Below are positions 25,002 to 47,019 of a stretch of DNA of 64,000 nucleotides, one piece after another (within the stretch, counting starts at the first letter, position 1; each line of letters starts with the position of its first letter). The stretch lies in NCBI GenBank assembly GCA_947630215.1, contig CANRGX010000003.1, positions 1 through 64,000 on the forward strand, read 5' to 3'. Both the position numbers and the translations under genes were made by a program. The notes under the pieces were generated by a model. The model was not told the origin of the DNA and did not search any database. It worked only from the letters and a program-made list of their open reading frames with translations. The DNA comes from an uncultured Eisenbergiella sp. (lineage in GTDB: Bacteria; Bacillota; Clostridia; Lachnospirales; Lachnospiraceae).

Positions 25002-26792
25002 TTATTCTACGTCCTGCAGAGCGGCGTAGCCTTCCTCGCCGGTGCGGACCTTCACCACCTGGCTCACATTGTAGACAAAGATCTTGCCGTCGCCGATGTG
25101 GCCGGTATACAGGGTTTTCTTTGCGGTTTCGATGACATCCGAAACGGGAATCTTGCTGACGACGACCTCGATCTTGACCTTAGGCAGCAGCGTCGCGTCC
25201 ACTTCCACGCCGCGGTACATGCTTCCGGCGCCCTTCTGGATGCCGCAGCCCATGACCTGTGTGACCGTCATACCCGTGACGCCCAGGTTGTTCATGGCCT
25301 CCTTGATCTTCTCGTAGCTGGACAGCTTGGTGACAATGACCACCTTGTGGATGCCCGTATCCAGATCCATGGGCGCGCCGTTGACAGGCACGGCCGCGGC
25401 TTTCTGCACCTCGGAGGCCTTTTCGTAATCGGAAGTGCCCAGATCCGTGTTTTCGTTGATATCCATGGTCATGGTGTTGGAAATATCCATGATGGAGAAG
25501 CCCGCATAAGCGCTGGTCAGGCCGTGCTCGCAGGCGTCCAGTCCCATAATTTCTTCATCCTGGGAAACCCGCAGGCCCACGAGAGCGCGGATGACCAGGA
25601 AAGCGATGGTGATGGTGACAGCGGTCCAGAGGATCGTCGCACCCATGCCCAGAAGCTGAATGCCCAGCTGCTTCAGACCGCCGCCGTAGAACAGTCCTTC
25701 GCCCGCGATCTGGTTTGCCCCGAAGGTTACGCCGTCGCCGAACCCTCTGGCAAAAGCGGGTGCGGTTTTTGTGGCGAACAGACCGACAGAGATGGTGCCC
25801 CAAATGCCGTTTAAGCAGTGTACGGCCACGGCGCCCACCGGGTCGTCAATGTGCAGCTTGTAGTCCAGGAACCATACGCCAAATACCACCAGCAGACCGG
25901 CCACAGCGCCGATTACGATAGCGCCGAAGGCGTCGCAGACGTCGCAGGGAGCGGTGATGGCCACCAGACCCGCCAGGGAAGCGTTTAAGCACATGGAAAC
26001 ATCGGGTTTGCCATATTTGATCCAGGTAAAAATCATACATACAACCGTGGCCACAGAGGGCGCGATAGTAGTGGTGACAAAGATGGAACCCATTTCCTCA
26101 ATGGAAGTGGCGGCCGCGCCGTTAAAGCCGTACCAGCCCAGCCACAGAATGAACACGCCCAGGCAGCCCAGCGGAAGGCTGTGACCGGGGAACGCGTTGA
26201 CCTTCGTCACTTTTCCGGCCTTATCCTTCACAAATTTCCCGATACGGGGCCCAAGAAGGGCCGCGCCCACCAGCGCGCTGATGCCGCCTACCATGTGGAT
26301 ACAGTTGGAACCCGCGAAATCGTGGAATCCGATCTGGGCCAGCCAGCCGCCGCCCCAGGTCCAGTGCGCCTCCACCGGATAGATCACAGCGGAGATGACA
26401 GCGGAGTAAATGCAGTAGGAAAGGAACTTGGTACGTTCCGCCATGGCTCCGGACACGATGGTCGCCGTGGTCGCACAGAACACCAGGTTGAACACAAAGT
26501 TGGACCAGTCGAAGCTCTCGTAGGCGGTAAAAATGTCAAAACCGGGCTTGCCGATGAACCCGAACAGATCCTCACCCAGAAACAGGCCGAAGCCGACCAG
26601 GATGAACATCACGGTTCCGATGCAGAAGTCCATCAGATTCTTCATCAGAATGTTGCCCGCGTTTTTTGCCCTGGTAAAGCCGGTCTCCACCATGGCGAAT
26701 CCGGCCTGCATCCAGAATACCAGGGCGGCGCCGATCAAAAACCAGACGCCGAATACTTCGCCGTTAATGGCACTCAGAATTTCTTCGCTCAT
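25002..26792 (-). CDS. amt: Ammonium transporter fused to a C-terminal P-II domain
   Basis: The 596-residue protein joins an Amt/Rh channel (about residues 1-430, eleven helices, with the pore segment HWTWGGGWLAQIG and FPGHSLPLGCLG) to a P-II signalling domain (about residues 480-596, from HKVVIVTKL). In most bacteria P-II (GlnK/GlnB) is a separate trimer that plugs Amt when nitrogen is plentiful; here each channel subunit carries its own. The T-loop reads GAGSMYRGVEVDATLLPKV and lacks the usual uridylylated Tyr51 position, so control is probably by ATP/ADP and 2-oxoglutarate only. It is downstream of purF. Confidence 0.95.
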   Translation of the reverse strand: MSEEILSAINGEVFGVWFLIGAALVFWMQAGFAMVETGFTRAKNAGNILMKNLMDFCIGTVMFILVGFGLFLGEDLFGFIGKPGFDIFTAYESFDWSNFVFNLVFCATTATIVSGAMAERTKFLSYCIYSAVISAVIYPVEAHWTWGGGWLAQIGFHDFAGSNCIHMVGGISALVGAALLGPRIGKFVKDKAGKVTKVNAFPGHSLPLGCLGVFILWLGWYGFNGAAATSIEEMGSIFVTTTIAPSVATVVCMIFTWIKYGKPDVSMCLNASLAGLVAITAPCDVCDAFGAIVIGAVAGLLVVFGVWFLDYKLHIDDPVGAVAVHCLNGIWGTISVGLFATKTAPAFARGFGDGVTFGANQIAGEGLFYGGGLKQLGIQLLGMGATILWTAVTITIAFLVIRALVGLRVSQDEEIMGLDACEHGLTSAYAGFSIMDISNTMTMDINENTDLGTSDYEKASEVQKAAAVPVNGAPMDLDTGIHKVVIVTKLSSYEKIKEAMNNLGVTGMTVTQVMGCGIQKGAGSMYRGVEVDATLLPKVKIEVVVSKIPVSDVIETAKKTLYTGHIGDGKIFVYNVSQVVKVRTGEEGYAALQDVE

Positions 26793-26920: not shown

Positions 26921-26952
26921 CAAAAGGTGCGCCTGTCTGCAAGCGCACCTTT
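26921..26952 (-). terminator. Terminator between purF and amt
   Basis: On the minus strand AGGTGCGC and GCGCACCT enclose ten bases and are followed by TTTGTCATGTTTTG. It lies about 50 bases after the purF stop. It may be the end of the glnN-purF unit or an attenuator before amt; no good promoter is seen between purF and the hairpin. The rest of the 209-base gap contains two more GC hairpins. Confidence 0.6.
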
Positions 26953-27001
26953 GCGTTGTTGCCCCGTTAGGGGAAAAAGAATGTCCGACAACCGGGGAGA
27001 G

Positions 27002-28441
27002 TCATACAGGGTAACGGTTGTCAAAACACGCTTTACATAGTGGAAGATCTCCTGTCATTTGGGACAGATCTTCGATTTTCATATACCCCAGGGAATCCGC
27101 GCCGATCCGGGCGCAGATTTCGTCAGCCGTATGCGTGGAAGCGATCAGCTGATCGTTGCTGGGAACGTCCGTCCCGTAGTAGCAGGGATACAAAAAGGGC
27201 GGGGAGCTGATGCGGACGTGCACCTCCTTCGCCCCGGCCTGCTTGAGCATGGAGATGAGACTTGCCATGGTGGTGCCGCGGACGATGGAATCGTCAATCA
27301 GGACCAGCCGTTTGCCTTTTACCACGCTGCTAAGTACGTTCAGCTTTAAGTGTACGGCCGATTCCCGCTCCTTTTGGGTGGGCTTGATAAAGGTTCTGCC
27401 CACATAACTGTTTTTATGAAACGCGAGGGCGAAGGGCAGGCCGGAAGCCTGCGAAAAGCCCATGGCGGCGGCCAGTCCGGAATCGGGAACCCCGGTGACC
27501 AGATCCGCGTCCGCCGGCTGTGAGAGGGCCAGCGCCCTGCCGGCACGGATTCTCGCGTCATAAACATTTACGCTGTCCAGCGTGGAGTCCAGCCGGGCAA
27601 AATAGATGTATTCAAAAATGCAGTGCGCGTGGGCCTCCTGTGCCAGCCGGCAGTCCGACTGTACCTTATCTTTGGTGACGGTGAGAATCTCGCCGGGCAT
27701 GACGTCCCGGACAAATTCCGCGCCCACCGCGTCCAGCGCGCAGCTTTCGGAAGCAAACAGATAACTGTCGCCCCGCTTCCCCAGGCAAAGAGGCTTTAGG
27801 CCCAGCGGATCCCGCACGCCTATCAGCTTGCGGGGACTCATGATCACCAGCGCATAACCGCCCTTTAACTTCTGTGCGGCATGCAGGATGGCATCCTCCA
27901 CCCGCGCGGCGCGGGTGCGCTCCTTCGCGATGAGACAGGCGATCACCTCCGAATCGGTGGTGGTGTGGAAGATTGTGCCGTTTTCCTCCAATTCCTGCCG
28001 CAGCTGCAGGGCGTTGGTCAGATTTCCGTTGTGCGCCAGCGCCAGCGTTCCCTTTAAATACTTTAAAACCAGGGGCTGGGCGTTTTCGGCGGTACTGGAA
28101 CCGGTGGTGGAGTAGCGCACGTGCCCGATGCCCAGATTGCCCGTCAGGGCGTTGAGGGTTTCGGGACGGAACACCTCGTTTACCAGTCCCATATCCTTGT
28201 GCCAGGTGATGTTTCCCTTGGGCCCGAAGGTATCGCAGACGGCCATGCCGGCCGCCTCCTGCCCGCGGTGCTGTAAGGCGCAAAGGCCGTAGTAGACGTC
28301 GGGGGCCGCGGCGCCTTTGTCCGGGTTGAAAATCCCGAACACGCCGCATTCTTCTTTTATGGAGCGCACCAGCGCCACGCGCTTTGCGCCGGTATCCAGC
28401 CCCGGTGCGCCCTCTGTTTCGCCGGATGTCTGCCTAGACAT
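27002..28441 (-). CDS. purF: Amidophosphoribosyltransferase
   Basis: PurF transfers the glutamine amide to PRPP, the first committed step of purine synthesis. The 479-residue precursor has a propeptide before the catalytic Cys in IKEECGVFGIF (about residue 33), a glutaminase domain, and the PRPP loop VLIDDSIVRGTT. It starts 42 bases after the type III glutamine synthetase stop and is probably co-transcribed with it, a link between glutamine supply and purines. C-terminal iron-sulfur ligands typical of the B. subtilis type are not all evident (the tail has PLCKACFDNRYPV). Confidence 0.95.
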   Translation of the reverse strand: MSRQTSGETEGAPGLDTGAKRVALVRSIKEECGVFGIFNPDKGAAAPDVYYGLCALQHRGQEAAGMAVCDTFGPKGNITWHKDMGLVNEVFRPETLNALTGNLGIGHVRYSTTGSSTAENAQPLVLKYLKGTLALAHNGNLTNALQLRQELEENGTIFHTTTDSEVIACLIAKERTRAARVEDAILHAAQKLKGGYALVIMSPRKLIGVRDPLGLKPLCLGKRGDSYLFASESCALDAVGAEFVRDVMPGEILTVTKDKVQSDCRLAQEAHAHCIFEYIYFARLDSTLDSVNVYDARIRAGRALALSQPADADLVTGVPDSGLAAAMGFSQASGLPFALAFHKNSYVGRTFIKPTQKERESAVHLKLNVLSSVVKGKRLVLIDDSIVRGTTMASLISMLKQAGAKEVHVRISSPPFLYPCYYGTDVPSNDQLIASTHTADEICARIGADSLGYMKIEDLSQMTGDLPLCKACFDNRYPV

Positions 28442-28483: not shown

Positions 28484-30580
28484 TCAGATGTAAAACAGCA
28501 GCTTTTCGTAGTTCGGATAGGGCAGAATGCTGTCGGGAATATATTCCTCCGCCGCGTCCGCGCTTTCGCGCACGGCCGCCATGTCCGCCAGTACGGTTTC
28601 GTGATAGAACCTGGCCGCTTCCAGCATATCCGTCATGCCCTCCGCCGTCCTGGTATCGGCCGCCAGCTTTTCCTGTGCCGCGTAGATGTCCTCATAGTAA
28701 CCGGACAGCGTGGAAAGCAGCTTCTGCTCCGCCGTGCAGGGCAGATCGGCCACCGCTTTTTTGCCGCGGATGGAGCTGCTCACCTCGTCGGCGTACTGCA
28801 TCAGCGCCGGCAGGAAGTCGCGCCGGATCATATCCTGCATGGTTTTGGCTTCAATGTGCAGCGTCTTGCAGTAATTCTCCAGCAGGATTTCATATCTGGA
28901 ATGAATTTCGCTTTCCGTAAAGATCCGGTGTTTGGTAAACAGCTGAATGTTTTTCTCGGCGATGAAGCAGGGCAGAGCCTCGGGCGTGGATTTCAGATTG
29001 TAAAGACCGCGCTTTTTGGCTTCCTCCACCCATTCGTCGGTGTAGCCGTTGCCGTTGAAAATGATCTTTTTATGTTTCAGAATCGCGCGCTTGACCAGGG
29101 TATGTACCGCGTTGCCCATCTGATCCGCGGGCGTATCCTTCAGCTCGTCATAGAACTGGGACAGAGCCTCCGCAACCGCCGTGTTCAGTACGATGTTGGG
29201 GCCGGCCACCGAAATGGAGGAACCCAGCATACGGAACTCGAACTTATTGCCGGTAAAGGCAAAGGGTGAGGTACGGTTCCGGTCGGTGTTGTCCTTGAAG
29301 AAGTGGGGCAGTACGGTCGCCCCCGTCTCCATCTGAATCTGCTGATGCTTGCCGAAGAACGTATCGTTCTCGATGGAATCCAGAACCTCCGTCAGTTCGT
29401 CGCCCAGGAAAATGGATACAATGGCGGGCGGCGCTTCGTTGGCGCCCAGCCGGTGATCGTTTCCGGCGCTGGCCACGGAAAGACGCATCAGATCCGCGTA
29501 TTCGTCCACCGCCTTGATGACCGCCATCAGGAAGATGAGGAACTGAATGTTCTCCGCGGGCGTGCGGCCGGGATCCAGAAGATTCACGCCGGTATTGGTG
29601 ATCATGGACCAGTTGTTGTGCTTGCCGGAGCCGTTGATGCCGTCGAAAGGCTTCTCATGCAGCAGGCATACCAGCCCGTGCTTGTCGGCCACCTTTTTCA
29701 TGACTTCCATGGTCAGCTGGTTGTGATCCACGGCGATGTTGGCGGTATCGAAGATGGGAGCCAGCTCATGCTGCGCGGGCGCCACTTCGTTGTGCTTGGT
29801 CTTGGCGGGAATGCCCAGCTTCCAGAGCTCTACGTCCAGATCGTGCATGAAAGCGGCGACGCGGGGCTTTAAGGCTCCGAAATAATGATCTTCCATTTCC
29901 TGGCCCTTGGGGGGCATGGCGCCCAGCAGCGTGCGGCCGGTGAAAATCAGATCCTTTCTCTTTGCGTACTGTTCTTTGTCAATCAGGAAATATTCCTGCT
30001 CGGGCCCGATGGTGGTGGAAACGCTGGTCACATCCGTCTGCCCCAGCAGATTTAAGATCTTGGCGGCTTCCCGGCTCAGCGTTTCCATGGAGCGCAGAAG
30101 CGGGGTCTTTTTGTCCAACGCTTCGCCGCTGTAGGAGCAGAAAGCGGTGGGAATATACAAGGTGCCATCCTTGATAAAAGCCGGAGAGGTGGGATCCCAG
30201 GCGGTATAACCTCTCGCCTCAAAGGTCGCCCGCAGTCCGCCGGAAGGAAAGCTGGACGCATCGGGTTCGCCCTTTACCAGCTCCTTGCCGGAGAAGTCCA
30301 TAATGACCTGCCCGTTGCCCACCGGGGAAATAAAGCTGTCATGCTTTTCGGCGGTGAAACCGGTCATCGGCTGGAACCAGTGCGTGAAATGCGTCGCGCC
30401 GTTTTCCACGGCCCATTCCTTCATCGCCACCGCAACGGAATTGGCCACGTCCAGCTCCAGATGCGTGTTGTTCTCAATGGTTTTGCGCAGCGCCTTGTAG
30501 ATGTCCCTGGGGAGCTTGTCGCGCATGACCTTGTCATTGAAAACGAGGCTGCCGTACAGTTCGGGAATACCTTTTTCCAT
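28484..30580 (-). CDS. glnN: Type III glutamine synthetase
   Basis: GSIII makes glutamine from glutamate, ammonia and ATP. It is a large form (about 700 residues) found in Bacteroidetes, cyanobacteria and some Clostridia; this one is 698 residues. The N-terminal segment HWFQPMTG and motifs SSFPSGGLRATFEARGYTAWDPTSPAF (read in parts), GPEQEYFLID and NGSGKHNNWS are diagnostic. The C-terminal third is helical. A second, type I, synthetase is encoded 10 kb away, so two forms are present. The gene has a strong promoter and a highly structured leader. Confidence 0.96.
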   Translation of the reverse strand: MEKGIPELYGSLVFNDKVMRDKLPRDIYKALRKTIENNTHLELDVANSVAVAMKEWAVENGATHFTHWFQPMTGFTAEKHDSFISPVGNGQVIMDFSGKELVKGEPDASSFPSGGLRATFEARGYTAWDPTSPAFIKDGTLYIPTAFCSYSGEALDKKTPLLRSMETLSREAAKILNLLGQTDVTSVSTTIGPEQEYFLIDKEQYAKRKDLIFTGRTLLGAMPPKGQEMEDHYFGALKPRVAAFMHDLDVELWKLGIPAKTKHNEVAPAQHELAPIFDTANIAVDHNQLTMEVMKKVADKHGLVCLLHEKPFDGINGSGKHNNWSMITNTGVNLLDPGRTPAENIQFLIFLMAVIKAVDEYADLMRLSVASAGNDHRLGANEAPPAIVSIFLGDELTEVLDSIENDTFFGKHQQIQMETGATVLPHFFKDNTDRNRTSPFAFTGNKFEFRMLGSSISVAGPNIVLNTAVAEALSQFYDELKDTPADQMGNAVHTLVKRAILKHKKIIFNGNGYTDEWVEEAKKRGLYNLKSTPEALPCFIAEKNIQLFTKHRIFTESEIHSRYEILLENYCKTLHIEAKTMQDMIRRDFLPALMQYADEVSSSIRGKKAVADLPCTAEQKLLSTLSGYYEDIYAAQEKLAADTRTAEGMTDMLEAARFYHETVLADMAAVRESADAAEEYIPDSILPYPNYEKLLFYI

Positions 30581-30604
30581 AGATTTTTCTCCTTTCGCTC
30601 TTGT

Positions 30605-30675
30605 GTGCGCGCCGGAAGCCGTTCAAACAAACGGCCGCCGGACAAAACCGACAGAAACGCGGGCTGTCCGCGCAC
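30605..30675 (-). promoter_or_regulatory. Three-way-junction RNA structure in the glnN leader
   Basis: On the minus strand GTGCGCG pairs with CGCGCAC (seven bases). Inside are two stems: GACAG-N9-CTGTC, and CCGG...CCGG extended by GGCCGTT/AACGGC. The element begins right after the U-tract of an upstream terminator hairpin and ends about 24 bases before the start codon, leaving the ribosome site free. It does not match the glutamine-riboswitch (glnA RNA) consensus as I recall it. Confidence 0.5.
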
Positions 30676-30711
30676 AAAAAAGGCGCCTGGGGAAATTCCC
30701 AAAGCGCCTTT
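30676..30711 (-). terminator. Early terminator (attenuator) in the glnN leader
   Basis: On the minus strand AAAGGCGC and GCGCCTTTTTT form a stem around an inner GGG/CCC helix. It lies only some ten bases after the predicted transcription start and well before the gene, so it must be overcome for glnN to be expressed. The 339-base gap 30581-30919 holds this leader, its promoter and, beyond it, the inverted repeat before the ATPase gene. Confidence 0.7.
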
Positions 30712-30725
30712 GCTTTACGATTGGT

Positions 30726-30753
30726 AGTATACACTCCTAAAATAAAAAGTCAA
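30726..30753 (-). promoter_or_regulatory. glnN promoter
   Basis: On the minus strand TTGACT and TATACT are 16 bases apart, close to consensus. Confidence 0.7.
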
Positions 30754-30919: not shown

Positions 30920-32179
30920 ATGGAAAAGGAAATCAAAAGGGACAGATATCTCGATCAACTGGTGCAACGCAAGGGCAACGGATTGATTAAAGTGATAACG
31001 GGGATCAGAAGATGCGGGAAATCCTATTTACTGCGGACATTGTTTAAAAACCATCTGTTGGAGGAAGGCGTAGAAAAGGATCATATTATTGAAATGGCCT
31101 TCGATCTGTTCGACAACATCGACTACAGAGATCCCCGGGTTTTTTATCCGTGGGCAAAGGAACAGATCCGGGATAACGGAAGATATTATTTTTTGCTGGA
31201 CGAAGTACAGCTTTTGGGAGAATTTGTCAGCGTCTTAAACGGCCTTGCGGATAAAAAGAACTGTGATGTGTATGTAACCGGAAGCAACGCCCGGTTCCTT
31301 TCCCGGGATATCGCGACGGAATTTGGCGGCAGAGGGGAAGAAATACACATGTATCCGCTCAGCTTTTCGGAGTTTATGACCGTATCCCCCAAAAATCGCT
31401 ATGACGGCTGGAATGAGTATATTACCTACGGCGGGATCCCGATGGTGGTTCTGGCGGATACCGACGATCAGAAGGAGGCCCTTTTAAAAAGCCTGTTTCA
31501 GGAAACCTATATCCGTGATATTGCGGCAAGAAATAAGGTCAGGAATGTGGGCGAGATGGAAGCGCTTCTGGATATCCTGTCCTCCGCAATTGGTTCCCTG
31601 ACCAATCCAAACAAGCTGCAGAAAGTTTTCCAGAGTGTGAACCGTTCCAAAATAACGGCGTCAACCGTCACAAAGTATATCGAATATCTCAAGGATGCCT
31701 TTCTGATTGAGGAAGCGAAGCGCTATGACATAAGGGGAAACGCCTATATCGGTACGCCTGTGAAGTATTACTATATGGATTTGGGCCTTCGGAATGTGCG
31801 GATCAATTTCAGACAAATGGAAATTTCGCACGCGATGGAAAATGTCATCTACAATGAACTGAGAATGCGCGGCTACAGTGTGGACGTGGGAAATCTTGGC
31901 ATCGTGGAGAGAAAAAAGGACGCGGCTCCCGTAAAAAAACAGCTGGAGGTCGATTTTATCTGTCGGAAGGGTTCCGGGCGCTGTTATGTGCAGTCCGCCT
32001 ATTTGCTGGAGTCAGAAGAAAAGATAACCCAGGAGATCAGGCCCTTTTTAAAGATCCGGGATTCCTTCCGGAAGATGATCATCACCTCCAATACGCCCAA
32101 ACCTTTTTTTAACGATCAGGGAATCCTGATCATGAACGTCTATGATTTTCTCCTGGATCCGGATTCGGTGGTTTTTTGA
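30920..32179 (+). CDS. AAA-14/DUF4143-type ATPase
   Basis: The ATG at 30920 behind GGGAGGGAGC gives 419 residues. The N-terminal P-loop ATPase has Walker A GIRRCGKS (residues 28-35) and Walker B YYFLLDEVQ; the sensor region reads VYVTGSNARFLSRD. The C-terminal DUF4143 domain, with LEVDFICRKG and YVQSAYLL, has the core of a PD-(D/E)xK-like fold. The family is very common in anaerobes and often mobile, but its role is not established. It sits alone between glnN and pyrG with an inverted repeat upstream. Confidence 0.88.
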   Translation: MEKEIKRDRYLDQLVQRKGNGLIKVITGIRRCGKSYLLRTLFKNHLLEEGVEKDHIIEMAFDLFDNIDYRDPRVFYPWAKEQIRDNGRYYFLLDEVQLLGEFVSVLNGLADKKNCDVYVTGSNARFLSRDIATEFGGRGEEIHMYPLSFSEFMTVSPKNRYDGWNEYITYGGIPMVVLADTDDQKEALLKSLFQETYIRDIAARNKVRNVGEMEALLDILSSAIGSLTNPNKLQKVFQSVNRSKITASTVTKYIEYLKDAFLIEEAKRYDIRGNAYIGTPVKYYYMDLGLRNVRINFRQMEISHAMENVIYNELRMRGYSVDVGNLGIVERKKDAAPVKKQLEVDFICRKGSGRCYVQSAYLLESEEKITQEIRPFLKIRDSFRKMIITSNTPKPFFNDQGILIMNVYDFLLDPDSVVF

Positions 32180-32226: not shown

Positions 32227-32267
32227 GTTTGAGTAAAAGGTTGGAAAGCGCATAAAATGAAATTGAC

Positions 32268-32321
32268 AAGGGCGTCAAATGGCCTGCAAAAGCAGGCTTA
32301 TTTGACGCCCTTCGCTGTTTT
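32268..32321 (+). terminator. Terminator-like hairpin in the pyrG leader
   Basis: AAGGGCGTCAAAT and ATTTGACGCCCTT form a perfect 13-base stem that contains an inner hairpin GCCTGC-AAAA-GCAGGC, followed by CGCTGTTTT. It lies between candidate promoters and pyrG, so it may attenuate pyrG. It could instead simply end the ATPase transcript. Confidence 0.6.
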
Positions 32322-32369: not shown

Positions 32370-33992
32370 ATGGCGGTTAAATATGTGTTTGTGACGGGCG
32401 GTGTGGTGTCCGGGCTGGGCAAAGGGATCACCGCCGCGTCGCTGGGACGGCTGTTAAAGGCCAGAGGCTACCATGTGACGATGCAGAAGTTCGATCCCTA
32501 TATCAACGTGGATCCGGGAACCATGAATCCCATCCAGCACGGGGAGGTCTACGTGACCGACGACGGCACCGAAACCGATCTGGATCTGGGGCATTACGAG
32601 CGGTTCATCGACGAAAGCCTGGATTTCAACTCCAACGTCACCACCGGAAAAATTTACTGGTCGGTATTAAATAAGGAAAGACACGGTGACTACGGCGGCG
32701 GCACGGTACAGGTAATCCCCCACATCACCAACGAGATCAAATCCCGTTTCCATCGGGCGAAAACCCCGGACGAGGAGACGATTTCCATTATCGAGGTGGG
32801 CGGCACCGTAGGCGACATCGAAAGCCAGCCCTTCCTGGAGGCCATCCGGCAGTTCCAGGCGGAAATGGGACGGGAAAATGCAATTTTGATCCAGGTGACC
32901 CTGATCCCGTACCTGAAGGCTTCCGGAGAAATGAAGACCAAGCCCACGCAGATGAGCGTCAAGTCCCTGCAGAGCATGGGAATCTGGCCCGACATTCTGG
33001 TGTGCCGTTCCGATTATCCCATAGATGAGAAAATGCGGGAAAAGATCGCGCTTTTCTGCAATGTAAAAAAAGAACATGTCCTGCAGAACCTGGACGCGGA
33101 TTCCCTCTATGAGGTTCCGCTGATGCTGGAGGAGGAGAAGCTGGCCCAGGCGGTCTGCGAATGCCTGCATCTGCCCTGCCCCGATCCGGATTTGAGCGAC
33201 TGGCGGCGGCTGGTGGAGGATCTGCACCACCCCCTCACCAGTGTCACCATTGCGCTGGTGGGCAAATATGTGGCGCTGCACGACGCTTACTTAAGCGTGG
33301 CGGAGGCCTTAAAGCACGGCGGCATCGCCAACCGGGCCGAGGTACATATCCGCTGGATCGACGCGGAGGAACTGACGCCGGAAAATCTGGAGGAATATCT
33401 GCACGATGTGGACGGCATTCTGGTGCCCGGCGGGTTCGGACAGCGGGGCACGGAGGGGAAGATCCTGGCGGTGGGTTACGCCAGGAAAAATAAAATCCCC
33501 TATCTGGGGCTCTGCCTGGGAATGCAGCTGGCCATTGTGGAGTTTGCCCGGAACGTGGCAGGACTGCCGGAGGCGGCCAGCATCGAGCTTTCTCCCGATA
33601 CGCCCGACCCGGTTATCGCTCTGATGCCGGAGCAAAACGGCGTGGAAAATCTGGGCGGCACGCTGCGGCTGGGCGCCTATCCCTGTGTGTTAAAGGAAGG
33701 AACGCTGGCCCACAGGCTTTACGGAAAGACACAGATTTCAGAGCGGCACCGCCACCGCTATGAGGTAAACAACGAGTACCGCGCCTGCCTGACCGAAAAC
33801 GGAATGGTGCTTTCGGGCCTTTCCCCGGACGGCAGGATTGTGGAAATGATAGAACTGTCGGATCATCCGTTTTTTGTGGCGACCCAGGCGCACCCGGAGT
33901 TCAAGTCCAGGCCCAATCTGCCCCATCCGCTCTTTAAGGGACTGATTGAGGCGGCGGTGCGGTATGCCGGTTGTGCGGAGCCGCTCATGTAA
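32370..33992 (+). CDS. pyrG: CTP synthase
   Basis: PyrG aminates UTP to CTP with glutamine and ATP. The 540-residue protein has the synthetase domain ([21 protein letters not shown], and the UTP/CTP-site segment [11 protein letters not shown]) and a class I glutaminase domain with the catalytic Cys in [11 protein letters not shown] and the His-Glu pair near [10 protein letters not shown]. It starts the run pyrG-gltB-gltD-glnA-ANTAR, in which gaps are under 30 bases, so these may form one nitrogen operon. Confidence 0.97.
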
Positions 33993-34010
33993 GCGGGAAT
34001 GGAGGAAAAA

Positions 34011-37000
34011 ATGGATCAATTCTGTATCAGGAAACAGGACGACGAAACGCAGCAGGGGCTTTATCATGCTTCTTTTGAACACGATAACTGCGGCATTGGC
34101 GCTATCGTGAACATAGAGGGAAAGAAAAGCCACCGGATCGTCGCGGACGCGTTGAAGATTGTGGAAAATCTGGAGCACCGCGCGGGCAAGGACGCGGAGG
34201 GAAAAACCGGAGACGGCGTGGGGATTCTGACCCAGGTTTCCCACCGTTTCTTTGAAAAGGCCTGCAAAGAAGCAGGCATCCAAATCGGCGGGGAGAGGGA
34301 ATACGGCGTCGGTATGTTTTTCTTTCCCCAGAACGAACTCAAGCGCAGCCGGGCCAAAAAGATGTTTGAGATCATCGTGCAGAAAGAGGGCATGCGGTTT
34401 TTGGGCTGGCGCGATGTGCCGACGGATCCGCAGGTGCTGGGACATAAAGCGCGGGAGTGTATGCCCGTGATCTGCCAGGGCTTCGTGCAAAAGCCGGAGA
34501 ATCTGGAGAAGGGGCTGGAGTTTGACCGCAAGCTCTATGTGGTGCGGCGGGTTTTCGAACAGAGCAACGACAATACCTATGTGCCGTCCCTGTCCAGCCG
34601 GACTGTGGTTTACAAGGGAATGTTTCTGGTGGGACAGCTGCGCACCTTCTTTTTGGATCTGCAGGACGAGGACTATGACTCGGCCATTGCCATTGTCCAC
34701 TCCCGTTTTTCCACCAACACCAATCCCAGCTGGGAGCGGGCCCACCCCAACCGGTTCATTGTCCACAACGGGGAAATCAACACCATCAAGGGAAATGTGG
34801 ATAAAATGCTGGCCCGGGAGGAAACCATGTCCGCCCATAAATTTTCCGCGGACGATCTGACCAAGGTGCTGCCGGTGATCAACGCCACCGGATCCGATTC
34901 CGCCATGCTGGACAACACGCTGGAATTTCTGGTGATGAGCGGGATGGATCTGCCGCTGGCGGTGATGATCACCATTCCGGAGCCCTGGACGCACAACGAC
35001 ACCATTTCCCAGGAAAGACGGGATTTCTATCAATATTACGCCACCATGATGGAGCCCTGGGACGGCCCGGCCTCCATTCTGTTTTCCGACGGCGATCTGA
35101 TGGGGGCGGTGCTGGATCGAAACGGCCTGCGCCCTTCCCGTTACTACATTATGGATGACGGGCGGCTGATCCTCTCCTCCGAGGTGGGCGTGCTGGATCT
35201 GCCCGACGAGCACATTCTGAAAAAGGAGCGGCTGCATCCCGGCAAAATGCTGCTGGTGGATACGAAGCGCGGCCGGGTGCTTTCCGACGAACAGATCAAG
35301 GAAGCCTACGCGCTAAAGGAGCCCTACGGGGAATGGCTGGACAGCAACCTGGTGACGCTTTCGGAGTTAAAAATCCCCAACGAAAAGATCCCCGCCTATT
35401 CTTCGGAGGAACGGGCCCGGCTGCAGAAGGCCTTCGGCTATACCTATGAAGAATACCGGGGCAGTATCTGCGCCATGGCCTTAAACGGCACGGAGCAGAT
35501 CGGGGCCATGGGCGTGGATACGCCGCTGGCCGTGCTTTCCAAAGAATACCAGCCGCTGTTTTTCTATTTTAAACAGTTGTTTGCCCAGGTGACCAATCCG
35601 CCCATCGACGCCACCCGGGAAAAAATCGTGACCTCCACCACCGTTTATGTGGGCAAAAACGGCAATCTTTTGGAAGAAAAGCCGGAGAACTGCCAGGTGC
35701 TCAAAATCAACAATCCGATTTTGACGGATCTGGATCTGCTCAAAATCCGCACCATGAAAAAACCGGGCTTCCAGGTGGCCTATGTGCCCATTATTTTCTA
35801 CAAGAGCACGCCCATGGAAAGGGTGCTGGAGCATCTGTTTGTGGAGGTGGACAAAGCCTATCGGGAAGGGGCCAATATCCTGATCCTTTCCGACCGGGGC
35901 GTGGACGAAAACCATGTGGCGATCCCGTCCTTGCTGGCGGTTTCTGCTGTCCATAAGCATCTGGTCAAAACCAAAAAATGTACGGCGCTCTCTCTGATTC
36001 TGGAGTCCGGAGAACCCAGGGAGGTGCATCATTTCGCCGCCCTTTTGGGCTACGGCGCCAGCGCCGTGAACCCCTATCTGGCCCACGCCACCATCGCCGA
36101 ACTGGTGGAGGCGGGACTGGTGAACAAGGATTACTATGCGGCGGTCAACGATTATGACAACGCGATTTTGCAGGGCATCGTAAAAATCGCTTCCAAGATG
36201 GGCATTTCCACGATCCAGTCCTATCAGGGCAGCCAGATCTTTGAGGCGGTGGGCATTTCCCAGGAGGTGATCGACCGGTATTTCACCGGCACGGTCAGCC
36301 GGGTGGGCGGCATTACGCTGGAGGACATCGCGGCCCAGACCGACGCCCAGCACTCCAGGGCCTTTGACCCGCTGGGGCTGGAAACGGATCTGACCCTTTC
36401 CTCCCTGGGACGGCACAAAATGCGCAGCCAGGGGGAGACGCACCGGTACAATCCGCAAACCATCCATCTGCTGCAGCAGTCCACGCGGGAAGGAAATTAC
36501 GAGAAGTTTGTGGAATATACGAAGATGGTGGACGCCGAGCAGACCGGCTATCTGCGCAGTCTGATGGATTTTAACTATCCAAAAGAGGGCGTGCCCCTGG
36601 AGGAAGTGGAGAGCGTGGAGGAGATTGTGAAGCGCTTTAAGACCGGCGCCATGTCCTACGGATCGATCTCCGAGGAGGCCCATGAAGCGCTGGCCATTGC
36701 CATGAACCATCTGCACGGCAAGTCCAACAGCGGCGAGGGCGGAGAAAGCGACGAACGGCTGGAATCCGCCGGGACGGATCACGACAGAAGCTCCGCCATC
36801 AAGCAGGTTGCCAGCGGCCGTTTTGGCGTCACCAGCCGCTATCTGGTCAGCGCAAAAGAGATTCAGATCAAAATGGCCCAGGGAGCCAAGCCCGGCGAGG
36901 GCGGTCATCTGCCGGCCCGCAAGGTCTATCCCTGGATCGCTAAAACGAGACATTCCACACCGGGCGTAAGTCTGATTTCGCCGCCGCCGCATCACGATAT

Positions 37001-38579
37001 TTACTCCATCGAGGATTTGGCGCAGCTGATCTACGATTTGAAAAATGCCAATAAGTACGCGCGGATTTCCGTCAAACTGGTCTCCGAGGCCGGGGTGGGA
37101 ACCGTAGCGGCGGGCGTGGCCAAGGCCGGCGCCCAGGTGGTGCTCATCTCCGGCTATGACGGCGGCACCGGCGCGGCGCCCATCAGCTCCATTCACAACG
37201 CGGGCCTGCCCTGGGAGCTGGGACTGGCGGAGACGCACCAGACGCTGCTTGCCAACGGCCTGCGCAACCGCGTGATGATCGAGACGGACGGCAAGCTGAT
37301 GAGCGGCCGGGACGTGGCCATCGCGGCGCTGCTGGGCGCGGAGGAATTTGGGTTCGCCACGGCTCCGCTGGTGACGCTGGGCTGTGTGATGATGCGTGTC
37401 TGCAACTTGGACACCTGTCCCATGGGCGTGGCCACCCAGAACCCGGAGCTGCGCAAGCGCTTTATCGGGAAGCCGGAATACGTGGAGAATTTCATGCGCT
37501 TTATCGCGCAGCAGCTGCGGGAATACATGGCAAAGCTGGGCGTGCGCAGCATCAACGAGATGGTGGGCCGCACGGATCTGTTGAAGAAAAAGGAAAACCT
37601 CACCGGCCGCGCGGCCAAGGTGGATTTGAGCCGCATTTTAAACGCTTCGCCGGAAACGGATCGGAGCCTGTGCGTGTTCGATCCCGCCTGTGCGTATGAT
37701 TTCGGACTGGAAAAGACCAAGGACGAGGCCGTTCTTTTAAAGAAAAGGGATCTTCGCAAGGCCATTGCTTCCGGTGAAAAAACGGAATACAGCGTAAAAC
37801 TGAGCAACGTGGACCGCACCTTCGGGACGCTGCTGGGGGCGGAAATCACCAGACAGCATCCGGAAGGACTGCCGGAGGATACCATTACCGTCCGCTGCAG
37901 CGGCGCGGGGGGGCAGAGCTTTGGCGCCTTTTTGCCAAAGGGTCTGACGCTGAGCCTTTGCGGAGACAGCAACGACTATTTCGGCAAGGGGCTTTCCGGC
38001 GGCAAGCTGGTGGTCTATGCGCCCCAGAAAGCGAAGTTTGTCCCGCATGAAAATGTCATCATCGGCAACGTGGCCCTTTACGGCGCCACCAGCGGCGAGG
38101 CCTATATCGCGGGCGCGGCGGGAGAACGGTTCTGTGTCCGCAACTCCGGCGCCACCGCCGTGGTGGAGGGTGTGGGCGAGCACGGATGCGAGTATATGAC
38201 CGGCGGCCGGGCCGTAATTTTGGGCCCCACCGGAAAGAACTTTGCGGCCGGCATGAGCGGCGGCATCGCCTATGTGCTGGATGAGAAAAACTGCCTGTAC
38301 CGGAACCTGAATAAGGAGATGGTGCTGATGGAAAAGGTGGAGACAAAGTTTGACAGGGAAGAACTGCGGGCCATGATCGAAGCCCACGTGGCCCACACGG
38401 GATCGGAAAAAGGGAAGGAAGTGCTGGCGCACTTTTCCGAGTATCTGCCCAAATTTAAAAAGGTCATTCCCGGCGACTATAAACGGCTGATCCAGCTCTC
38501 CTCCCAGTTCGAGGAACAGGGCATGAGCAGACAGGAAGCACAGATCGAAGCCTTTTACGCCAGCCTGGGCAACAAATAA
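34011..38579 (+). CDS. gltB: Glutamate synthase, large subunit
   Basis: GOGAT transfers the glutamine amide to 2-oxoglutarate, giving two glutamates. The start at 34011 fits the GGAGG spacing better than the ATG at 33999 and gives 1522 residues. The class II glutaminase nucleophile Cys lies in HDNCGIGAIV after a short propeptide. The FMN/synthase region holds SGYDGGTGAAPISS, and the 3Fe-4S cluster segment reads CNLDTCPMGVATQ. The C-terminal beta-helix GXGXG repeats are present. It stands 12 bases before gltD. Confidence 0.97.
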   Translation: MDQFCIRKQDDETQQGLYHASFEHDNCGIGAIVNIEGKKSHRIVADALKIVENLEHRAGKDAEGKTGDGVGILTQVSHRFFEKACKEAGIQIGGEREYGVGMFFFPQNELKRSRAKKMFEIIVQKEGMRFLGWRDVPTDPQVLGHKARECMPVICQGFVQKPENLEKGLEFDRKLYVVRRVFEQSNDNTYVPSLSSRTVVYKGMFLVGQLRTFFLDLQDEDYDSAIAIVHSRFSTNTNPSWERAHPNRFIVHNGEINTIKGNVDKMLAREETMSAHKFSADDLTKVLPVINATGSDSAMLDNTLEFLVMSGMDLPLAVMITIPEPWTHNDTISQERRDFYQYYATMMEPWDGPASILFSDGDLMGAVLDRNGLRPSRYYIMDDGRLILSSEVGVLDLPDEHILKKERLHPGKMLLVDTKRGRVLSDEQIKEAYALKEPYGEWLDSNLVTLSELKIPNEKIPAYSSEERARLQKAFGYTYEEYRGSICAMALNGTEQIGAMGVDTPLAVLSKEYQPLFFYFKQLFAQVTNPPIDATREKIVTSTTVYVGKNGNLLEEKPENCQVLKINNPILTDLDLLKIRTMKKPGFQVAYVPIIFYKSTPMERVLEHLFVEVDKAYREGANILILSDRGVDENHVAIPSLLAVSAVHKHLVKTKKCTALSLILESGEPREVHHFAALLGYGASAVNPYLAHATIAELVEAGLVNKDYYAAVNDYDNAILQGIVKIASKMGISTIQSYQGSQIFEAVGISQEVIDRYFTGTVSRVGGITLEDIAAQTDAQHSRAFDPLGLETDLTLSSLGRHKMRSQGETHRYNPQTIHLLQQSTREGNYEKFVEYTKMVDAEQTGYLRSLMDFNYPKEGVPLEEVESVEEIVKRFKTGAMSYGSISEEAHEALAIAMNHLHGKSNSGEGGESDERLESAGTDHDRSSAIKQVASGRFGVTSRYLVSAKEIQIKMAQGAKPGEGGHLPARKVYPWIAKTRHSTPGVSLISPPPHHDIYSIEDLAQLIYDLKNANKYARISVKLVSEAGVGTVAAGVAKAGAQVVLISGYDGGTGAAPISSIHNAGLPWELGLAETHQTLLANGLRNRVMIETDGKLMSGRDVAIAALLGAEEFGFATAPLVTLGCVMMRVCNLDTCPMGVATQNPELRKRFIGKPEYVENFMRFIAQQLREYMAKLGVRSINEMVGRTDLLKKKENLTGRAAKVDLSRILNASPETDRSLCVFDPACAYDFGLEKTKDEAVLLKKRDLRKAIASGEKTEYSVKLSNVDRTFGTLLGAEITRQHPEGLPEDTITVRCSGAGGQSFGAFLPKGLTLSLCGDSNDYFGKGLSGGKLVVYAPQKAKFVPHENVIIGNVALYGATSGEAYIAGAAGERFCVRNSGATAVVEGVGEHGCEYMTGGRAVILGPTGKNFAAGMSGGIAYVLDEKNCLYRNLNKEMVLMEKVETKFDREELRAMIEAHVAHTGSEKGKEVLAHFSEYLPKFKKVIPGDYKRLIQLSSQFEEQGMSRQEAQIEAFYASLGNK

Positions 38580-38591
38580 GGAGATGAGAAA

Positions 38592-40076
38592 ATGGGAAAA
38601 CCCACAGGATTTCTGGAATATGAACGCAAAGACGGCCCGGTGACAGAGCCGGAGGAAAGAATCGGGAATTTCGGGGAATTTCACGGGGCTCTCTCCGAAG
38701 AACAGCAGCGCCTGCAGGGCGCGCGCTGTATGGAATGCGGCGTGCCCTTCTGCCAGGCGGGCATGATGATCGCCGGCATGGCGTCCGGCTGCCCGCTGCA
38801 CAATCTGGTGCCCGAGATCAACGATCTGGTCTATCACGGCAACTGGGAACAGGCCTATGTGCGGCTGAGCAAAACCCACTGTTTCCCGGAATTTACTTCC
38901 CGGGTCTGCCCGGCGCTGTGCGAAGCGGCCTGTACCTGCGGCCTGCACGCAAAGCCCGTCAGCACCAAGGAAAATGAACGGGCAGTCATTGAATACGCGT
39001 TTGCCAACGGCCTGGTAAAGGCCGATCCGCCCAGGGTGCGCACCGGCAAGACCGTGGCGGTGGTGGGCAGCGGCCCCGCGGGACTGGCGGCGGCCTGGCA
39101 GCTGAACAAAAGAGGACATCTGGTGACCGTGTACGAAAGAAGCGACAGGCCCGGCGGCCTGCTGCGTTACGGGATTCCCAACATGAAGCTGGAAAAGCGC
39201 ATCCTCGACCGGCGCATCCGGCTGATGGAGCAGTCCGGCATTCAGTTTCAATGCGGCGTCAACGTGGGCAAAGACATATCCGGCGCAGATCTGGCGGCGC
39301 AGTATGACCGGGTGATTCTGGCCTGCGGCGCTTCCCATCCCCGGGACATCAGCGTGCCCGGCCGGGACGCGCAGGGGATCTGGTTTGCTGTGGACTTTTT
39401 GTCCCGCGTGACCAAAACCCTCCTGGACAGTGAGTTTAGGGAGGTGCCCTATGAACTGGCGAAGGGAAAACAGGTGCTGGTCATCGGCGGCGGCGACACC
39501 GGGAACGACTGTGTGGGCACCGCCATCCGGCTGGGGGCCGCGAACGTGGTACAGCTGGAAATGATGCCCAAACCGCCGGAAGTGCGGGCGGAAAGCAATC
39601 CCTGGCCCGAATGGCCCAAGGTATTAAAGACCGATTATGGCCAGGAGGAGGCCATCGCCAGGTTCGGACAGGATCCCAGAATCTATCAGACTACCGTGAC
39701 GGAATTTCGGAAAAACGAAGCCGGACAGGTATGTGGCGCCACCGTCGTCAGCCTGCGGCCCCAATATGACGAAAAGACGAAACGCACGGCCATGGTGCCC
39801 GTAGAGGGCAGCCAGAGACAGATTCCGGCGGATCTGGTTTTGATTGCGGCGGGATTTTTGGGAAGTGAGGCTTACGTTTCGGAAAGTTTTGGTGTAAAAT
39901 GTAATGCAAGGACCAATGTGGACACCGCCCCCGGCCAGTATCAGACCAGCCGGGAAAGAATCTTTACGGCGGGCGACATGCACCGGGGGCAGTCCCTGGT
40001 GGTCTGGGCCATTGCGGAGGGAAAGGAAGCAGCTCACGCGGTGGACGAATCTCTCATGGGATACACAGATCGGTAA
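38592..40076 (+). CDS. gltD: Glutamate synthase, small subunit
   Basis: GltD passes electrons from NAD(P)H to the large subunit. The 494-residue protein has N-terminal 4Fe-4S cysteines (CMECGVPFC, CPLHN, CPALCEAACTC), an FAD-binding Rossmann motif VVGSGPAGLAAAWQL and an NAD(P)H site VIGGGDTGNDCVG. The order gltB-gltD is standard, and glnA follows 15 bases later, which places the whole GS-GOGAT cycle in one transcript. Confidence 0.97.
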   Translation: MGKPTGFLEYERKDGPVTEPEERIGNFGEFHGALSEEQQRLQGARCMECGVPFCQAGMMIAGMASGCPLHNLVPEINDLVYHGNWEQAYVRLSKTHCFPEFTSRVCPALCEAACTCGLHAKPVSTKENERAVIEYAFANGLVKADPPRVRTGKTVAVVGSGPAGLAAAWQLNKRGHLVTVYERSDRPGGLLRYGIPNMKLEKRILDRRIRLMEQSGIQFQCGVNVGKDISGADLAAQYDRVILACGASHPRDISVPGRDAQGIWFAVDFLSRVTKTLLDSEFREVPYELAKGKQVLVIGGGDTGNDCVGTAIRLGAANVVQLEMMPKPPEVRAESNPWPEWPKVLKTDYGQEEAIARFGQDPRIYQTTVTEFRKNEAGQVCGATVVSLRPQYDEKTKRTAMVPVEGSQRQIPADLVLIAAGFLGSEAYVSESFGVKCNARTNVDTAPGQYQTSRERIFTAGDMHRGQSLVVWAIAEGKEAAHAVDESLMGYTDR

Positions 40077-40091
40077 AAGGAGAAAGAGGAT

Positions 40092-41414
40092 ATGACGAAG
40101 GCCGAAATCTTGCGTTTGGCGGAAGAAGAAGATGTGGAGTTTATCCGGCTGCAGTTTACGGATATGTTCGGAGTGCTCAAAAATGTGGCGGTTCCGGCCA
40201 GCCAGCTGGAACGCGCCGTCAACAACGAGTGTTCCTTCGACGGCTATGGCATGGACGGCATCTGGAACAGAAGCGAGGGCGACCTGTTTCTGCATCCGGA
40301 TCTGGACACGTTCCGGATTTTGCCCTGGCGGCCCCAGCAGGGAAAAGTGGCCAGGATGTTGTGCGATGTGCGCCGGGAGGACGGCTCCTCCCTGCCGGTC
40401 AGCACCCGGGCCATGCTCAAGTGCGTCCTGCAAAAGGCGGACGAAATGGGCTATGAGGTCTATGTTCATCCGGAATGCGAATTTTTCCTGTTCCATACGG
40501 ACGAAAACGGCGTACCCACGACCGTGAGCCATGAACGCGCCGGTTTTCTGGACGTGAGCCCGCTGGATCTGGGCGAGAACGCCAGACGGGAAATGGTGCT
40601 GGCGCTGGAGAGCATGGGATTTGAAATTGAGTCCTCCTTCCACGAGAGCGCTCCCGCCCAGCATGAGATCGATTTTAAACCCGCCGGGGCGCTGGAAATC
40701 GCCGACAAGATTGTCACCTTTAAGAATGCGGTGCGCTCCACGGCCAAGCGCTTTGGCCTGCACGCCACCTTCATGCCCAAGCCCACGGCCGGATCCGCGG
40801 GATCCGGAATGCACATCAGCTTCACGCTGCGCAGGGACGGGAAAAATATCTTTTTCGATTCGCAGGATAAGGACGGTATCAGCAGCGAGGCGCGCTGGTT
40901 CATGGGAGGCGTCATGGCCCATGTAAAGGGAATGTGCGCCCTGACCAACCCGCTGGTCAATTCCTATAAACGTCTGACATCGGGTTTTGAGGCGCCCCGG
41001 GACATCATCTGGACGACCCGCAATCAGAACACGCTGATCCGGGTGCATACCCAGAGGGGAACCGACGTGGGGATCGAACTGCGGTTTCCCGACCCTTCGT
41101 CCAATCCCTACCTGGCGCTGACGGCCTGCATTGCGGCGGGGCTGGACGGCATAGAAAAACGGACGGATCCCGGCGCGGCGGCGGCCTACAATTTCTCCGA
41201 GCGCACGGAGGCCGAAAAGACGGCCGCCGGTGTGGAACGTCTGCCGGCAACGCTGCCGGAGGCGGTGGCCTGCCTGGAACAGGACGCGTTTTTAAAGACC
41301 GTGCTGGGCGGGGAGTTTGTCCAGACCTATGTGGACTGCAAAAAAGCGGAATGGAACGAATATATGTCCCAGGTTTCCGAATGGGAAATAGAAAAATACC
41401 TGTACCGGGTATGA
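40092..41414 (+). CDS. glnA: Type I glutamine synthetase
   Basis: This second synthetase is 440 residues, the GSI-alpha size typical of Firmicutes. It has the metal-site segment VYVHPECEFFLF, the ATP-site motif KPTAGSAGSGMHISFT and the glutamate-site stretch NSYKRLTSGFEAP. The adenylylation segment of the beta type is absent, so covalent control is not expected; feedback and transcriptional control are more likely. It is followed 13 bases later by an ANTAR gene. Confidence 0.97.
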   Translation: MTKAEILRLAEEEDVEFIRLQFTDMFGVLKNVAVPASQLERAVNNECSFDGYGMDGIWNRSEGDLFLHPDLDTFRILPWRPQQGKVARMLCDVRREDGSSLPVSTRAMLKCVLQKADEMGYEVYVHPECEFFLFHTDENGVPTTVSHERAGFLDVSPLDLGENARREMVLALESMGFEIESSFHESAPAQHEIDFKPAGALEIADKIVTFKNAVRSTAKRFGLHATFMPKPTAGSAGSGMHISFTLRRDGKNIFFDSQDKDGISSEARWFMGGVMAHVKGMCALTNPLVNSYKRLTSGFEAPRDIIWTTRNQNTLIRVHTQRGTDVGIELRFPDPSSNPYLALTACIAAGLDGIEKRTDPGAAAAYNFSERTEAEKTAAGVERLPATLPEAVACLEQDAFLKTVLGGEFVQTYVDCKKAEWNEYMSQVSEWEIEKYLYRV

Positions 41415-41427
41415 GGCGGGGGAGCGG

Positions 41428-41976
41428 ATGAGCGGCATAATTGTTGTTTTGCCAAAACTGGAGGACGCAAAACAGATTCGCAGCATCCTCAGCCGCCGCG
41501 GCCTGGATACCGCCGCCGTCTGTACCACAGGGGCGGGGGTTTTGTCCCGTCTCTCCCAGATCGGCAGCGGCGTGGTGATTTGCAGCTACCGCCTGAAGGA
41601 TATGCACTATACGCAGCTTGCGGCGTATCTGCCCGATTATTTTGAAATGCTGCTTTTGACGTCGTCTGCCGAGGTGGAAAACTGCCCGCCGGACATTCTG
41701 TCTTTGACCTATCCCATCCGGCCCAACGACCTGGCGGGAACGGTAAGTATGATGCTGGCCCAGCTGGATCGGCGACTCCGCCGCAAAAAGACGATGCCCA
41801 AACAGCGGTCGGATCGGGAGCAGAACTACATCAACAACGCGAAGATGATTCTGATGGAACGCAACAATATGACGGAGCAGGAGGCCTATCGGTACATCCA
41901 GAAAAGCAGTATGGATTCCGGCACCAATATGGTAGAAACGGCGCAGATGATCCTGCTGCTTTTGTTTGACAGCTGA
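41428..41976 (+). CDS. ANTAR-domain RNA-binding regulator with a pseudo-receiver
   Basis: The 182-residue protein has a receiver-like N-terminal half whose usual phosphorylated Asp is replaced ([11 protein letters not shown]), so it is probably not controlled by phosphorylation there. The C-terminal ANTAR helices ([24 protein letters not shown], read in parts) are the family signature. ANTAR proteins bind twin hairpins in leader RNAs and prevent termination; in Clostridia they are often linked to glutamine and glutamate genes. The position right after gltBD-glnA supports a nitrogen role. Candidate targets are the terminator-bearing leaders of glnN, pyrG and amt, but I did not see a clear twin-hairpin motif in them. 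Confidence 0.88.
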
Positions 41977-44761: not shown

Positions 44762-45718
44762 ATGAGCGGATACGATGTGATGGCTCTCGGAGAGCTTTTG
44801 ATTGACTTTACGGAGAACGGAAAGAGCGCGCAGGGCAACCCCTTGTTTGAGGCCAATCCCGGCGGCGCGCCCTGCAACGTGCTGGCCATGCTGGCGCGGC
44901 TGGGCAAGAAAACCGCCTTTATCGGAAAGGTGGGCAGGGACTTTTTCGGGGACCAGTTAAAGGAGGCTCTGGAGGAGGTCGGGATTGACGCGTCCGCCCT
45001 GCGGATGGACGAACAGGTACATACGACGCTGGCGCTGGTACACACCTATCCGGACGGGGATCGGGATTTTTCGTTTTACCGCAATCCGGGCGCGGATATG
45101 ATGCTGACAGAAGCAGAAATTCCGGAGGAACAGATTGCGGCGTCCCGGATCCTGCATTTCGGCACGCTGTCCATGACCCATGAGGGAGTGCGCGCGGCAA
45201 CGCAAAAGGCCCTTGCCGCCGCGAAGAAAAACGGCGTTCTCATTTCCTTTGATCCCAATCTGCGGCCGCCGCTGTGGCCGTCCCTGGAAGCGGCAAAGCA
45301 GCAAGTGCTCTGCGGAATGGGCTATTGCGATGTGCTCAAGATCTCGGACAATGAAATCACATGGCTGACCGGGACGCAGGATTACGATGAAGGGGTGGCA
45401 TGGATCCGCAGCCGGTATCCGGATATTACCCTGATCCTGGTTTCGCTGGGAAAAGAGGGCAGCCGGGCCTACTACGGAAAAGAAACGGTGGAAGTGCCCG
45501 CCTTTGTGCGGCAGGATACGGTGGAGACCACGGGCGCAGGGGACACCTTCTGCGGCTGCGTGCTCAACTACATCCTGGAGCATGGCCTGCAAAAGTTGAG
45601 CCGGGAAAATCTGACAGAAATGCTGCGGTTTGCCAACGCCGCGGCGTCCCTTATCACAACCCGGAAGGGAGCGCTGCGCGTGATGCCCACCAGACAGGAA
45701 GTGGAAGCGCTGCTGTAA
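44762..45718 (+). CDS. PfkB-family sugar kinase, probably fructokinase
   Basis: The 318-residue protein has the ribokinase-fold motifs NPGGAPCNVLAMLARLG near residue 35 and ETTGAGDTFCGCVL near residue 257, with the catalytic Asp in GAGD. Similarity to bacterial fructokinases (start DVMALGELLIDFTE) makes fructose the likely substrate, giving fructose 6-phosphate. No sugar transporter is next to it. A bidirectional terminator separates it from purC. Confidence 0.88.
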   Translation: MSGYDVMALGELLIDFTENGKSAQGNPLFEANPGGAPCNVLAMLARLGKKTAFIGKVGRDFFGDQLKEALEEVGIDASALRMDEQVHTTLALVHTYPDGDRDFSFYRNPGADMMLTEAEIPEEQIAASRILHFGTLSMTHEGVRAATQKALAAAKKNGVLISFDPNLRPPLWPSLEAAKQQVLCGMGYCDVLKISDNEITWLTGTQDYDEGVAWIRSRYPDITLILVSLGKEGSRAYYGKETVEVPAFVRQDTVETTGAGDTFCGCVLNYILEHGLQKLSRENLTEMLRFANAAASLITTRKGALRVMPTRQEVEALL

Positions 45719-45738
45719 GAAAAGAAACGGATAGGAAA

Positions 45739-45776
45739 TCAGGCCGCCGGGGGAACCGGCGGCCTGACTGTTTTTT
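45739..45776. terminator. Bidirectional terminator between the kinase gene and purC
   Basis: TCAGGCCGCCGG and CCGGCGGCCTGA form a 12-base stem with GGGAA loop, followed by CTGTTTTTT on the + strand. Confidence 0.9.
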
Positions 45777-46650: not shown

Positions 46651-46848
46651 GTCCTTTCTTACCTCGCTTGTGCGGATTTTGCCGGAACGCAACCGGAAAA
46701 ACGCCTTTCGCCATGCGAAGGGCTGATACCCATAGTTAAACAGATTTCGGGGGAAAATGCAAGGGCCATTTTCAGAAAGATGGTCTGCAGGTTTGTCAAA
46801 CATATGTTGCATTTTGACCTTTTCATTTGTTATTATTTAAGAAGGAGG

Positions 46849-46872
46849 CCTGTATCCCCAGGAGGATACAGG
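46849..46872. repeat. Perfect 9-base inverted repeat
   Basis: CCTGTATCC and GGATACAGG enclose CCAGGA. It lies at the left edge of the AT-rich island, directly after GAAGGAGG. There is no U-tract. It may be an RNA hairpin or a recombination remnant. Confidence 0.4.
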
Positions 46873-47019
46873 GAAAAGAGAGGGTTTTAACGGATGTTCT
46901 AAACATGGCTGTTATCCGGACTGGCATCAGAATTGTGGGTATACTAGAGATTAGTCTGATCGATCTCATGGGGTGTGCTGGTTGGAGTGTTGGTGGAGAT
47001 GTCTTGATAAGCAAAACAG

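Follow-up and report, generated by a model that had tools for sequence, protein, structure and literature searches.

A probable single-hexaloop ANTAR antitermination leader at the start of the glnN transcript in a Lachnospiraceae genome

Introduction

RNA targets of ANTAR proteins are recognised by a hairpin, P2, whose signature is a six-base loop with adenine at position 1 and guanine at position 4 (A1 and G4; PMC3369931, PMC3369936). In the antiterminator EutV, a tyrosine stacks on G4 and a methionine acts as the plug of the hexaloop, and in the crystal structure the dimer engages one hexaloop only, leading its authors to ask why two are needed (PMC8934654), since EutV requires both hairpins in vivo and deletion of the first, P1, abolishes induction (PMC3369931). 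Within Clostridia, NitR of solventogenic Clostridium is an antiterminator of ammonia assimilation (as cited in PMC4676874), and Desulfotomaculum reducens has ANTAR-linked glutamate synthase genes whose elements were reported as dual hairpins (PMC3369931); in the open literature neither system was found described with a one-hairpin leader. Nor did that literature show single-hairpin ANTAR leaders to have been reported before, whether from Lachnospiraceae or upstream of genes for type III glutamine synthetase (GSIII), with the proviso that the supplementary tables of Ramesh et al. may list individual leaders as dual hits.

Here we describe the leader of the GSIII gene glnN in an uncultured Eisenbergiella sp., which in our judgement is probably a single-hexaloop, promoter-proximal ANTAR antitermination leader controlling a glutamine/nitrogen regulon, and a variant of the known two-hairpin switch. 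By computation we find mutually exclusive structures, covariation, A1/G4 specificity, co-occurrence with ANTAR genes, promoter proximity and a missing P1.

The glnN locus

The window, that is, the whole stretch of 64,000 nucleotides analysed (contig CANRGX010000003.1), carries the following genes.

25002-26792, minus strand: amt, ammonium transporter ending in a P-II domain (domain search)
27002-28441, minus strand: purF-like amidophosphoribosyltransferase, an open reading frame with the class II amidotransferase start EECGVFGI...; purF leaders occur in relatives
28484-30580, minus strand: glnN, type III glutamine synthetase, domains GSIII_N, Gln-synt_C and Gln-synt_C-ter
32370-41414, plus strand: pyrG (32370-33992), gltB (33999-38579), gltD (38592-40076) and type I glnA (40092-41414)
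41428-41976, plus strand: gene for a 182-residue ANTAR protein, ANTAR domain at residues 129-176, receiver-like domain without the phospho-Asp

GlnN is 93% identical to a homologue from an uncultured Eisenbergiella, and the purF-like frame starts 42 nt 3' of glnN, the two probably sharing one transcript. The identity of pyrG rests on homology with CTP synthases of relatives. The ANTAR gene, the only one in the genome, ends the series pyrG-gltB-gltD-glnA-ANTAR, 11 kb from the glnN leader. The P-II domain of Amt spans residues 482-586, making the protein an Amt-GlnK fusion. At 30920-32179 (plus strand) lies a divergent AAA_14/DUF4143 ATPase that matches the PADLOC candidate defence models PDC-S01, in a broad family. 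A second GSIII gene, 53% identical, occupies 45029-47128 (plus strand) of contig C4 in genome G000, and inspection by eye of the sequence fetched upstream of it revealed no hexaloop-terminator.

Promoter, hexaloop hairpin and early terminator

The elements of the glnN leader, in the order of transcription, are these.

30748-30753, minus strand: -35 box TTGACT; the same promoter stands at the same distance in relatives
30726-30731, minus strand: predicted -10 box TATACT, separated from loop base A1 by 14 nt
30700-30717, minus strand: ANTAR P2-type hexaloop hairpin UAAAGC[AAAGGC]GCUUUG, loop 30711-30706, A1 at 30711 and G4 at 30708
30676-30711, minus strand: predicted intrinsic terminator, stem 30711-30679 with one mismatch, U-tract 30681-30676
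30604-30676, minus strand: three-way junction of the preliminary description, which forms in isolated folding, is lineage-specific and has no support for a function

The two promoter boxes, 16 nt apart, match the consensus at 10 of 12 positions, and their position leads us to expect a transcription start at about 30722-30718, with the terminator beginning some 8-10 nt downstream. The preliminary description of a promoter running straight into a terminator was correct: both lie on the minus strand and are widely conserved across relatives, which excludes chance. The whole leader outfolds 199 of 200 shuffled sequences (z -2.97).

The hexaloop hairpin has a six-pair stem and a six-base loop, and shares positions 30711-30700 with the terminator, its loop and 3' arm being the terminator's 5' arm, so that the two structures exclude each other. 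When the growing transcript is folded, the hairpin is present from nt 20 to 36 and is then replaced by the terminator; when it is enforced, no terminator is left. In the completed transcript the terminator is the minimum-energy fold and strongly favoured (-21.1 versus -8.5 kcal/mol), which implies that a protein stabilising the hairpin must act fast. Three features of ANTAR targets are found here: the A1/G4 hexaloop, a P2 stem that has 3 bp or more and overlaps the terminator's 5' arm, and a genome that encodes an ANTAR protein. The idea first drawn from the sequence, that the type III synthetase is controlled by antitermination, is well supported; the predicted antiterminator is the hexaloop hairpin at the 5' end, which shares terminator bases, and not the downstream junction. 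Of the RNA families put forward for comparison, ANTAR proved the right one, while no Rfam family, the glutamine riboswitch included, reached its gathering score with the glnN leader, lower-scoring covariance matches being attributable to chance.

Conservation and covariation across Clostridia

GSIII upstream regions were gathered from related genomes at genus, family and class level, together with 80 loci with organism names. The hexaloop-terminator recurs among 133 distinct GSIII leaders of Clostridia, and is present at 72 of 79 named GSIII loci. Cultured species that share the leader include Blautia schinkii, Oliverpabstia intestinalis and Sellimonas caecigallum. Selection by a good promoter and then a terminator only gave 65 leaders (57 after removal of near-duplicates), 51 of these 57 having AANGNY at the terminator foot. 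In leaders not selected for pairing, the flanks form a mean stem of 3.7 bp, against 1.9 with shuffled arms, and none of 10000 shuffles did as well. The antiterminator helix is paired in 90.8% of alignment cells, with a covariation score of 0.544 (0.259 when shuffled, at most 0.153 when slid), and four of its five pairs vary on both sides among 48 aligned hairpins; the terminator helix is 96.4% paired, scores 0.593 (0.287 when shuffled) and varies on both sides in 10 of 14 pairs among 38 leaders. Some of these alignments were built from sequences preselected for the hairpin, the unselected pairing test and the loop-letter control described next being less biased.

Loop position 3 may be A, C, G or U, and its changes are compensated across the terminator (column 12 with column 49). 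Positions 1 and 4 are invariant, an invariance built into the AANGNY selection pattern; the fair test, requiring other letters at both positions across 71 ANTAR-encoding genomes, gave 57 matches for A..G and between 0 and 2 for the other combinations tried. The glnN leaders L206, L222 and L234 deviate slightly, either in the loop (AAGAGC or GAAGGU) or by a shorter stem, and could act as natural loop mutants.

The module tracks the presence of ANTAR genes, standing before GSIII in 57 of 71 genomes with such a gene versus one of ten without (Fisher 2.6e-5, an optimistic value because the genomes are related), the single exception, G198, being 6% contaminated. Fourteen ANTAR-bearing genomes have no module before the GSIII copies examined. 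ANTAR is encoded in about nine-tenths of 298 Lachnospiraceae genomes, and in the ten genomes for which both matches were listed, about 1 kb separates the ANTAR domain from the glnA match, both being on one strand.

The ANTAR protein

The ANTAR domain of the 182-residue protein is recognised by Pfam (E 1.3e-16), and its predicted fold (pLDDT 89) is a receiver joined to an ANTAR domain, with Rv1626 and RNA-bound EutV as closest structures. EutV Tyr164 and Met172 align to a tyrosine and a methionine, but R142, K143 and K147, basic residues that are important in EutV, align to Q, N and N. In the receiver-like domain, Cys-Ser replaces the Asp expected at the end of strand 3, so the domain is not a phosphorylatable receiver and a kinase is unlikely to activate the protein. 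AmiR is a precedent for an ANTAR protein with a pseudo-receiver; no AmiC-like partner was identified for the protein in the window.

Elsewhere in the family, a CTP synthase with a fused C-terminal ANTAR domain occurs in G031 and its congener G277 (L289, 2125-3873, minus strand; L290, 1-1662, plus strand). No other ANTAR domain was found in either genome, and these two are all that is available for that Lachnospiraceae genus (G277 is 59% complete); the glnN leader of G031 (L012) retains the hexaloop-terminator module. The fusion suggests that a metabolic enzyme may itself serve as antiterminator, and hints that a glutamine-handling enzyme could be the sensor.

Other leaders and a putative regulon

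Two further modules lie in the window, weaker versions of that at glnN with weak scores against the covariance model.

26922-26955, minus strand: amt leader, hexaloop CGC[AAAGGU]GCG with a 3 bp stem, overlapping the terminator AAAGGUGCGC...GCGCACCUUUU (E 0.016)
32263-32312, plus strand: pyrG operon leader, hexaloop UUGAC[AAGGGC]GUCAA, overlapped by a long hairpin that resembles a terminator and has a weak U-tract (E 0.38)

The model matched 37 of 38 relatives tested; many of these supplied training sequences, so the glnN matches are not independent, in contrast to matches away from glnN. In relatives the module adjoins purF, gltB, amt, pyrG, carA, glnA, asnB and an ABC ATPase, and nearly all of the adjacent proteins produce, transport or consume glutamine or ammonium. 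Most modules away from glnN keep the promoter-proximal geometry, a few lying 26-65 nt from the promoter. A covariance search of the genome itself gave only glnN as a clear match, with a second on contig C37 that has no open reading frame of at least 80 aa within 879 nt; a short DNA pattern tried for the same purpose was rejected, performing no better than its reversed control.

One hairpin or two, and other readings of the leader

That EutV needs two hairpins implies that one might not suffice, which counts against a one-hairpin reading, and the characterised ANTAR targets have both P1 and P2 (PMC3369931, PMC8164766). The glnN leader could then be a canonical two-hairpin target whose start lies farther upstream, or whose second hexaloop lies elsewhere; six glnN leaders (L048, L058, L212, L213, L228 and L237) and one amt leader (L171) do carry two complete hexaloop-terminators in tandem, 53-65 nt apart, possibly as two-step attenuators. 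Against this stands the position of the promoters. A promoter with at least 10 of 12 consensus matches lies within 60 nt in 110 of the 133 distinct leaders, and the median distance from its -10 box to A1 is 14 nt (5-95% range, 13-18.6). In about 80% of leaders promoters of this quality are placed 10-19 nt ahead of A1, and they are almost absent elsewhere. With a start 6-7 nt past the -10 box, just 1-5 nt precede the stem, leaving no room for P1. Moreover, neither the 70 nt upstream of the module (17 of 131, 21 expected) nor those downstream of it (42 of 129, 37 expected) show an enrichment of A..G hexaloops, and on this ground a P1 hidden upstream or shifted downstream was rejected; none was found upstream of the hairpin in the window's glnN leader, which does not have the dual-hexaloop arrangement of an upstream P1 and a linker of about 2-25 nt. 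We therefore regard a two-hairpin leader as unlikely.

Two readings dispense with the hexaloop as an ANTAR target. Nucleotide-dependent choice of start site, or slippage, operates at some pyrimidine genes, and the early terminator might be governed in such an ANTAR-free way, the stem starting a few bases from the expected start and pyrG, carA and purF being among the targets; yet this would leave unexplained why the loop is specific for A1 and G4, why the 5' arm that lies beyond the terminator covaries and why the module co-occurs with ANTAR genes, and would not suit the few modules distant from their promoters, so we think it very improbable. Even less credible is a pair of independent devices, the early terminator and a ligand-binding three-way junction. 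The seven-base outer stem of the junction (30675-30669 with 30611-30605) is indeed perfect and lengthened by an eighth, U-A pair, and when 30604-30676 is folded alone the junction is the best structure, as originally drawn (-35.4 kcal/mol, outer pairs with p of about 0.88). When the leader is folded as a whole, however, another arrangement of these bases beats it, and in related GSIII leaders the stretch from terminator to ribosome site ranges from 17 to 199 nt, with very different shapes and a mean folding z of only -1.5, a diversity that rules the junction out as a conserved element. The second RNA signal that the preliminary description had placed there falls with it, its stems not being kept in related leaders, and the lack of an Rfam match points the same way.

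A proposed mechanism

Returning to antitermination through a single hexaloop, we infer protein binding, the start site and the signal in the following scheme. RNA polymerase would start a few bases ahead of the hexaloop hairpin, and by default the transcript would refold into the terminator and stop after about 45 nt. An active ANTAR protein would grip the hexaloop, with G4 on the conserved tyrosine and the methionine as plug, sequestering the terminator's 5' arm and letting transcription continue into glnN-purF. The same protein would read the modules at amt and at its own operon, forming a nitrogen/glutamine regulon with read-through presumably occurring when glutamine or ammonium is short; the sensor is possibly a partner enzyme such as GlnA. 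Points that weigh against the scheme are the three basic EutV contacts missing from the protein, the fourteen ANTAR-bearing genomes whose GSIII copies have no module, the weak scores at amt and pyrG, and the energy advantage of the finished terminator. We propose more tentatively, as a possibility that may well prove wrong, that one hexaloop suffices for ANTAR antitermination throughout a clostridial regulon and that the switch consists of glutamine-handling enzymes (linked to glnA, or CTP synthase-fused) in place of a kinase. If so, metabolic enzymes would drive transcription antitermination directly.

Comparison with known systems

The search models published for two-hairpin targets depend on P1 and should overlook one-hexaloop leaders, so that common gut Clostridia may have a large and hitherto undescribed ANTAR regulon that serves ammonium and glutamine metabolism. 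One-hexaloop leaders in more than 100 species make the question of why two hairpins are needed directly testable.

The closest described systems are the EutV leaders eutP, eutG, eutS and eutA of Enterococcus faecalis (Ramesh et al. 2012, PMC3369931), which likewise have an A1/G4 hexaloop on a short stem, its 3' arm doubling as the 5' arm of the terminator, and a protein-stabilised antiterminator, here predicted. They differ in having P1 and P2 joined by a linker of 5-12 nt, whereas glnN has the equivalent of P2 only, at the transcript start, and in that EutV is activated by a kinase while the ANTAR protein of the window lacks the phospho-Asp. The AmiR/amiE and NasR/nasF pairs share the ANTAR domain and the A1/G4 loop, and the AmiR receiver is also non-phosphorylatable, but both are single-locus systems with dual hairpins, in contrast to the regulon and single hairpin described here. 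NitR and the D. reducens system resemble the present case in placing glutamine synthetase and glutamate synthase genes of Clostridia under ANTAR control.
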